A model generated the notes under the pieces. The model made no database searches, was not told the origin of the DNA, and saw only the letters and a program-made list of their open reading frames with translations. The position numbers were made by a program, and so were the translations under genes. From contig NZ_VYIX01000001.1 in assembly GCF_009755885.1 (NCBI RefSeq), forward strand, positions 392,419 to 456,418: 64,000 nt of DNA. The letters run 5' to 3'. Source of the stretch: Brachyspira sp. SAP_772 (lineage in GTDB: Bacteria > Spirochaetota > Brachyspiria > Brachyspirales > Brachyspiraceae). Positions 1-853 of the stretch are shown here, in pieces (the stretch's first letter is position 1; each line of letters opens with the position of its first letter).

Positions 1-246
1 TTACCTTTTGCTCAAGCAAGATGGTGTGCTGCTGCCAATGCTAATTCACATATAGTATTATCAGATTATGCTGAAAGAGATTTTGGTAAGAAATTTGGTA
101 CTTTAATAAAAGAATTAAAACTTCTTACTCGTGCTGTATTTGTACTTGATAAAAACAATGTTGTTAAATATGTACAATATGTTCCAGAAATTACTAATGA
201 ACCTGATTATGAATCAGCAATAAAAGCAGCTAAAGAGCTTTTATAA
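1..246 (+). CDS. tpx: thiol peroxidase Tpx, 3' part only
   Basis: The first 81 codons seen are the C-terminal half of an atypical 2-Cys peroxiredoxin of the Tpx family, which reduces hydroperoxides in the cytoplasm using thioredoxin. The reading frame enters from the left edge, so the start and the peroxidatic cysteine are outside the window. Family hallmarks visible are the resolving-cysteine region (ARWCAA), LSDYAERDFG, LIKELKLLTRAVFVLD and the terminal NEPDYE stretch. It stops with TAA and is followed at once by a rho-independent terminator, so it is not co-transcribed with the next peroxidase gene unless there is read-through. Identification is firm; only the length is unknown. Confidence 0.93.
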   Translation, partial: LPFAQARWCAAANANSHIVLSDYAERDFGKKFGTLIKELKLLTRAVFVLDKNNVVKYVQYVPEITNEPDYESAIKAAKELL

Positions 247-268: not shown

Positions 269-305
269 AAGCATATCTTTATTTTTTAAAGGTATGCTTT
301 TTTTA
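269..305 (+). terminator. rho-independent terminator after tpx
   Basis: A 13-bp stem (AAGCATATCTTTA with TAAAGGTATGCTT, one G-U pair) around a short T-rich loop is followed by a run of T. It lies 22 nt after the tpx stop codon and just before the Shine-Dalgarno of the next gene. Confidence 0.85.
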
Positions 306-322
306 AATAAGGAGTTTAAGAG

Positions 323-808
323 ATGAGCATATATGACTATACAGTAAAAGATGCTGAAGGTAAGGATGTAAAATTAAAGAAATATGAAGGAAAAGTTTTG
401 CTTATAATTAATAGTGCCACTAAATGAGGCTTTACTAAACAATATTCTGCGTTGCAGGATTTATATAAAAAATACAAAAAGGATGGTTTTGAAATATTAG
501 ACTTTCCTTGTAATCAATTTGGCGGACAGGCAAAAGAGCCTATTGAGGAAATCGCTGAGTTTAGAAAAGAAAAATACGGTATTACTTTTAAGTTGTTTGA
601 CAAAGTAAAAGTTAATAGCAAAAATGCTGATCCTTTATTTACTTATTTGAGAACCGAAAAACCAACTGAAGAGGGAGTTGATAAAATAAGATGGAATTTC
701 GGTAAATTTTTAATAGACAGACATGGAAACATAGTTGGGCGTTATGACCCTAGGGTAAAGCCTGAAGAACTTGATGAGATAGTAGGCGAGTTGTTAAAAA
801 AAGAATAA
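323..808 (+). CDS. gpx: glutathione peroxidase, selenocysteine-containing (in-frame TGA at 425-427)
   Basis: Reduces hydroperoxides in the cytoplasm through a Sec/Gln/Trp/Asn active site. Reading from ATG 323, with AAGGAG at 310-314 region upstream, gives 161 residues if the TGA at 425-427 is decoded as selenocysteine (residue 35). The context NSATK-U-GFT is exactly where the family has Cys or Sec. The rest of the tetrad is present: Gln in PCNQFGG, and Trp and Asn in RWNFGKF. The frame is open on both sides of this single TGA, and the full length matches bacterial GPx proteins. A translation begun after the TGA would lack the active site. A stem-loop fitting the bacterial SECIS rule lies just downstream. 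A C-to-A sequencing error (TGC to TGA) is the main alternative. Neighbouring tpx suggests a peroxide-defence pairing, though a terminator separates them. Confidence 0.88.
425..459 (+). promoter_or_regulatory. bacterial SECIS-like element (UGA plus downstream hairpin)
   Basis: After the TGA codon, TTCTGC at 445-450 pairs with GCAGGA at 454-459 (six pairs, one G-U) around the three-base loop GTT at 451-453. Bacterial SECIS elements that recruit SelB carry a G and U in a small apical loop roughly 16-37 nt from the UGA; here 23 nt separate them. This is a pattern match, not a measured SelB site. Confidence 0.72.
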
Positions 809-813
809 AAAAT

Positions 814-853
814 TAAGGGCTTTTATATGTTTCTATATAGAAGCTCTTTTTTA
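814..853 (+). terminator. rho-independent terminator after gpx
   Basis: AGGGCTTTTATA pairs with TATATAGAAGCTCT (small mismatches and G-U) around a short loop, and six T residues follow. It begins a few bases after the gpx stop. Confidence 0.75.

Follow-up and report, generated by a model that had tools for sequence, protein, structure and literature searches.

Glutathione peroxidases (GPx) with a predicted selenocysteine (Sec) were reported in 2010 for Brachyspira pilosicoli 95/1000 (BP951000_2065 and BP951000_2066) and B. murdochii (PMC2897892), and a Sec-containing GPx of Treponema denticola is listed in Table 3 of PMC1794560. The two consecutive B. pilosicoli locus tags are as expected if an in-frame TGA splits the gene. 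The passages of PMC2897892 considered here give gene names alone, without hairpin, cysteine (Cys) alleles or exchange; we liken these genes to ours by genus, enzyme family and predicted Sec site, and the T. denticola enzyme by the prediction of a Sec in a GPx from a spirochaete. Elsewhere in the phylum, TGA-bearing GPx genes (G048 and G059) are 44-46% identical to the gene described below; the one that was placed in a tree sits on a long, weakly placed branch and is not grouped with Brachyspira. The distant GPx match at G059:C1:1523255-1523722 contains one TGA and one TAA.

Within Brachyspira, selenoproteins of the RAD-2 family were described in the genomes analysed in PMC5330540; these share with our gene the genus, the Sec machinery and a similar distance from UGA to stem-loop, but belong to another protein family. 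In two B. hampsonii strains that paper found none that belongs to a known selenoprotein family, from which it already follows that a Sec GPx is not universal in Brachyspira. Changes from Sec to Cys were described as rare in PMC1794560, in four families and mostly in FdhA and SelD, with a remnant SECIS in some; Table 1 of that paper counts a single Sec sequence and a single Cys-to-Sec event for GPx, and no event in the opposite direction. Our literature search, which covered titles and abstract openings and few subscription journals, returned neither a fossil SECIS in a GPx gene nor a genus in which Sec and Cys alleles have been exchanged.

The window, by which we mean the whole 64,000-nucleotide stretch of DNA from the gut spirochaete Brachyspira sp. 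SAP_772 that was analysed (G000:C1:392419-456418, on a contig of about 1.2 Mb), carries a GPx gene of the Sec type, which is not new as such, a Sec GPx having already been predicted in the genus. The gpx frame (323..808, + strand) was identified by translation, Pfam, a match to yeast HYR1 and a genome search. It is preceded by AAGGAGT (309..315, +), a likely ribosome-binding site found by direct reading of the sequence, runs from ATG 323 to TAA 806-808, and encodes 161 amino acids when its single internal TGA, codon 35 (425..427, +), is counted as a residue. The product matched Pfam GSHPx (PF00255; E-value 1.9e-39; 134.1 bits against a cut-off of 27; profile positions 1-108 of 108) and was the single GSHPx match in a profile search of the window's genome (G000). 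Its top sequence match among solved structures was yeast HYR1 (E-value 3.1e-43), in which a Cys is aligned with codon 35. The original prediction, made from the DNA letters and a list of open reading frames, was of a GPx frame unbroken from ATG 323 to TAA 808 save for a TGA at the catalytic codon, and the translation, the Pfam match and the HYR1 alignment all confirmed it. It had also anticipated that automated annotation would start near 452 and miss the active site; in the mechanical list of open reading frames the truncated frame expected from a standard gene caller does begin at TTG 452 (452..808, +).

The Gln, Trp and Asn partners, predicted to be intact, were located by motif position: NQFGGQ begins with residue 64 and RWNF with residue 123, which gives Gln69 (527..529, +) and Trp124 and Asn125 (692..697, +), the catalytic partners in the GPx family. 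Residue 35 aside, Cys63 is the sole Cys of the protein, and an Arg stands at the alignment position of the resolving Cys of HYR1; an outside thiol should therefore be needed. The gene very probably encodes a Sec-containing GPx, in which the selenol of Sec35, together with Gln69, Trp124 and Asn125, would reduce peroxides and an external thiol, glutathione-like or thioredoxin-like, would regenerate the enzyme; frame and family can be read directly from the sequence, and Sec insertion, peroxidase activity and the reductant are predicted from it.

A GPx search over 61 genomes returned a match in 37. An orthologue of gpx was found in 25 of 26 Brachyspira genomes, and the remaining one (G008, 86% complete) has a paralogue only. 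The alignment with Brachyspira relatives proposed in the original prediction placed TGA at codon 35 in 16 of the 25 orthologues, the window's included, and Cys in the other nine (TGC in seven and TGT in two); a UGA in frame at a redox-active site where homologues have Cys is one criterion for a bacterial selenoprotein, and gpx shows it. Among the best 80 of at least 397 loci encoding relatives in named genomes, 75 have Cys and five have TGA; these five are all from Brachyspira, probably lie already within the 25 genomes and were not counted extra. Of the 26 Brachyspira genomes, 14 (G008:C75 and 13 others) carry a Cys-type GPx paralogue of 50-56% identity; G000 does not. This paralogue was rejected as an explanation of the Sec/Cys mixture because the orthologues are distinct from it. 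At the position that holds Arg in the Sec orthologue, the G008:C75 paralogue has Cys, as in 2-Cys GPx.

The TGA had been taken to imply a working SelA/SelB/SelC/SelD system in the organism, and absence of selB and selC had been set beforehand as the finding that would speak against Sec; both are present on the window's contig and all four genes were found in G000, which is a further criterion for a bacterial selenoprotein. The tRNA-Sec gene (59.9 bits, above the cut-off; called tRNA-SeC with anticodon TCA by ARAGORN), selA (448 aa; TIGR00474 at 459.8 bits against 267.9, with Pfam SelA also matched) and selB (301.4 bits against a cut-off of 242.25) follow one another in that order in one row, and selD lies on another contig (C2:198470; 356.1 bits against a cut-off of 125). 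The same genome contains one UGA-bearing grdA and two UGA-bearing RAD-2 genes, so that the Sec machinery has several clients. Judging by the coordinates, the spacing of the sel row differs within the genus (e.g., G000 compared with G014, G003 and G009): the distance from tRNA-Sec to the selB match that follows it is about 1.5 kb in some genomes and about 3 kb in others. Two loci above the tRNA-Sec cut-off were found in G002, an assembly marked 7% contaminated: C124:3915-4002 (L088) and C134:11321-11403 (L105), the latter at the end of its stretch.

The genus-wide survey of the machinery covered selB and tRNA-Sec, with selA and selD searched in G000. Among the matches listed in the profile search, SelB was above cut-off in 26 of 26 Brachyspira genomes and tRNA-Sec in 25 of 26, the exception being the 86% complete G008, whose best match was called tRNA-Leu by ARAGORN; loss of Sec decoding was on these counts ruled out as the cause of the Cys forms. 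UGA-bearing RAD-2 genes are also present in genomes with a Cys-type gpx (G003, G019, G023 and G025), and the search for such genes in G006, another Cys-gpx genome (88% complete), returned only a thioredoxin-like match. The first RAD-2 gene has a Cys form in G000 (L239) and an in-frame TGA in G025 (L240), opposite to the gpx states of the two genomes; in L240 a hairpin, CCTTC-AGTT-GAAGG, lies 15 nt after the TGA.

A bacterial SECIS-type stem-loop follows the TGA of gpx (444..460, +; folding, synonymous recoding and orthologue scan), with a 7-bp stem (444-450/454-460) and the apical loop GTT at 451-453. A hairpin with a GTT loop had been predicted 23 nt after the TGA, which is correct for the loop; the stem begins at 16 nt. 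The folding energy of the hairpin is -6.1 kcal/mol, and a 76-nt stretch reaches -7.1 kcal/mol with a different fold around it. Against dinucleotide shuffles the energy was not significant (z from -0.76 to -1.40 for four stretches of 45-56 nt, and +0.23 for 76 nt). When the same 20 codons were recoded synonymously with the peptide fixed, a SECIS-type stem-loop as stable arose in 11 of 20000 recodings. Across the genus, a SECIS-type stem-loop was found in all 16 TGA orthologues (bare stem-loop -3.7 to -5.6 kcal/mol), where one stem pair is U-G in 13, U-A in two and C-G in one; among the nine Cys orthologues the hairpin is present in G025 only, seven have none and G019 has one of -0.1 kcal/mol. 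The recodings and the 16/16 versus 1/9 distribution together indicate that the hairpin is more than chance.

The bSECIS consensus as given in PMC13188914 has a loop of 3-9 nt, a stem of 4-16 bp, a G in the first two loop positions, 16-37 nt from UGA to loop and a minimum free energy of -7.5 kcal/mol or lower; that paper also states that the model does not cover all elements. The gpx hairpin lies within the first four of these values (loop 3, stem 7, G in GUU, spacing 23 nt), and in G011, G017 and G024, where the loop is 5 nt long (AGTTG in the DNA), the G criterion applies to AGUUG. It misses the energy limit (-6.1, or -7.1 over 76 nt, against -7.5 kcal/mol), and we therefore term it SECIS-like in function and no strict member of the consensus. 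The same scan found a stem-loop after the UGA in 11 of 11 RAD-2 genes of the genus (loop 19-21 nt from the UGA; GTT within the loop in four of 11; some weak, down to -0.7 kcal/mol) and nothing after the UGA in four of four GrdA genes, so that it is no general detector. Opposite-strand GrdA matches, which a loose pattern had produced, were disregarded as artefacts. In the mechanism we propose, SelB with Sec-tRNA(Sec) would bind the stem-loop at 444-460, just downstream of the UGA at 425-427, and Sec would be inserted there instead of termination.

Two other readings of the codon can be set against Sec insertion. The TGA could be a true stop, in which case gpx would be a pseudogene or yield no more than the fragment that begins at TTG 452, and the frame that the mechanical list begins at 452 and the energetic weakness of the hairpin are in its favour; such a fragment would be without the catalytic residue, and the recurrence of TGA at the same codon in the orthologues, the hairpin that tracks it everywhere except in G025 and the Sec machinery of G000 all speak against it. 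So does selection, since dN/dS among the 16 TGA genes is 0.051 before the TGA and 0.039 after it, which is strong purifying selection on both sides. We regard a true stop as exceedingly improbable. Those 16 genomes and the dN/dS values also led us to rule out a sequencing error or a pseudogene as the source of the TGA, an error being very unlikely because the codon recurs so often. Readthrough by near-cognate tRNAs is known in general, and the UGA might be read as another residue, Trp or Cys, the latter being what nine of the 25 orthologues encode at this codon; the presence of tRNA-Sec, SelA, SelB and SelD, and the hairpin that accompanies TGA, make this very improbable as well.

Upstream of gpx the window begins with the 3' part of tpx, a thiol peroxidase gene (1..246, +; ORF list, profile and homologue searches). 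A tpx homologue was found near gpx in 24 of the 25 loci when these reached about 1.5 kb either side, and in 19 of the 20 loci that were taken as larger regions, the one without it being that of G021. Element scans returned terminator-like stem-loops between tpx and gpx (269..299, +) and after gpx (815..848, +). The former ends 23 bases short of the gpx ATG, and transcription of gpx may thus depend on read-through or on a promoter within tpx. The next gene after gpx is cutC (964-1701), with a 12/12 match to a sigma-70-type promoter upstream of it (892-919), and a TPP riboswitch (60.9 bits) lies at 18046-18150. Distances for cutC came from three loci only and were not used.

The G025 orthologue has TGT at codon 35, and its protein differs from the window's at that residue and one other; its hairpin is unchanged. 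On the rpoB, selB and gpx trees G025 is grouped at 100/100 with G000, G001, G007 and G015, all of which have TGA. The simplest reading, for a Cys codon known from one assembly, is a recent change from Sec to Cys that left the SECIS as a fossil, and the direction is the better founded because the other four members of the clade have TGA on all three trees. The lineage would have kept SelB, tRNA-Sec and other UGA genes through this change. The case resembles the selenoprotein-derived FdhA and HesB-like Cys homologues with a remnant bacterial SECIS that are mentioned in PMC1794560; in G025 a Cys codon is combined with an intact SECIS-type hairpin, and neither SelB nor tRNA-Sec has been lost.

The gpx genes of five other Cys genomes (G003, G018, G019, G022 and G023) resemble one another along their entire length, although the genomes that carry them occupy three separate positions among TGA genomes in the rpoB and selB trees. 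In DNA trees this group lies outside the Sec group, with support of 98/99 with the hairpin codons and 89/98 without them. It is nested inside the Sec group, with weak branches, in a wider protein tree (37 of the best 80 named-genome loci plus 22 of 30 loci from the 61-genome search); in a genus-only protein tree the Sec group has support of 46/49, and AU tests do not reject the nested placement (p = 0.359 for DNA and 0.649 for protein). The Sec and Cys states take two changes on the gpx tree against five on rpoB (24 genomes, there being no rpoB match in G006 and G008) and six on selB (25 counted).

Such a mixture could have come about by independent point changes without any exchange of alleles. 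G025 resembles one such change, with its intact fossil hairpin, and gpx is short, with most inner branches of its trees weak. Against this stand the likeness of the five Cys genes throughout their length in genomes from three tree places, and AU tests run without codon 35 and the hairpin codons, in which both species groupings tested, taken from the rpoB and selB trees, were rejected for gpx (G022+G002+G016, p = 0.0004; G018+G024+G017, p = 0.0098). Third-position distances for rpoB, tpx and gpx, compared over 22 genomes, are also discordant: 0.082, 0.063 and 0.288 between G018 (Cys) and its relative G024 (Sec), and 0.222, 0.238 and 0.081 between the two Sec genomes G016 and G009. Compared in windows of 160 columns, the identity of G018 with G024 is 93-99% upstream of gpx and 81, 89 and 91% within the gene; starting 1.3 kb of alignment downstream, eight windows reach 90-100%, and the windows in between, like those at the far end, align poorly. 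Over 22 genomes, six of them with Cys (G006, G010 and G021 left out), the excess of Sec-Cys distance at gpx given the rpoB distance was reached by one of 20000 label shuffles, in a test designed after the trees were seen; the corresponding excess at tpx was reached by 17683 of 20000, i.e., no such effect. We consider independent point changes alone unlikely as the origin of the mixture.

We infer instead that species have traded Sec and Cys alleles of gpx, which occupy one shared position near tpx, by homologous recombination. For B. pilosicoli there is published evidence of such recombination (PMC8116685), and PMC6209664 cites gene transfer agents of Brachyspira; a vehicle for exchange thus exists in the genus, and it may have acted on gpx. 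From the sequence comparisons we judge it probable that the Sec form (UGA with SECIS) and the Cys form are exchangeable alleles of one site, replaced one gene at a time, with SelB and tRNA-Sec kept throughout the genus and G025 recently flipped.

In itself the window's gpx is a selenoprotein gene of an expected kind, which gene callers would cut short, and the genus-wide pattern is of more interest. With near-identical Sec and Cys enzymes, decoding factors kept in all or nearly all of the genomes searched, SECIS hairpins in varied states and evidence that alleles were exchanged, Brachyspira lends itself, as a natural experiment, to the question why some species keep a catalytic Sec and others abandon it, and the value of Sec to the enzyme could be tested with natural proteins only two residues apart (G000 and G025).
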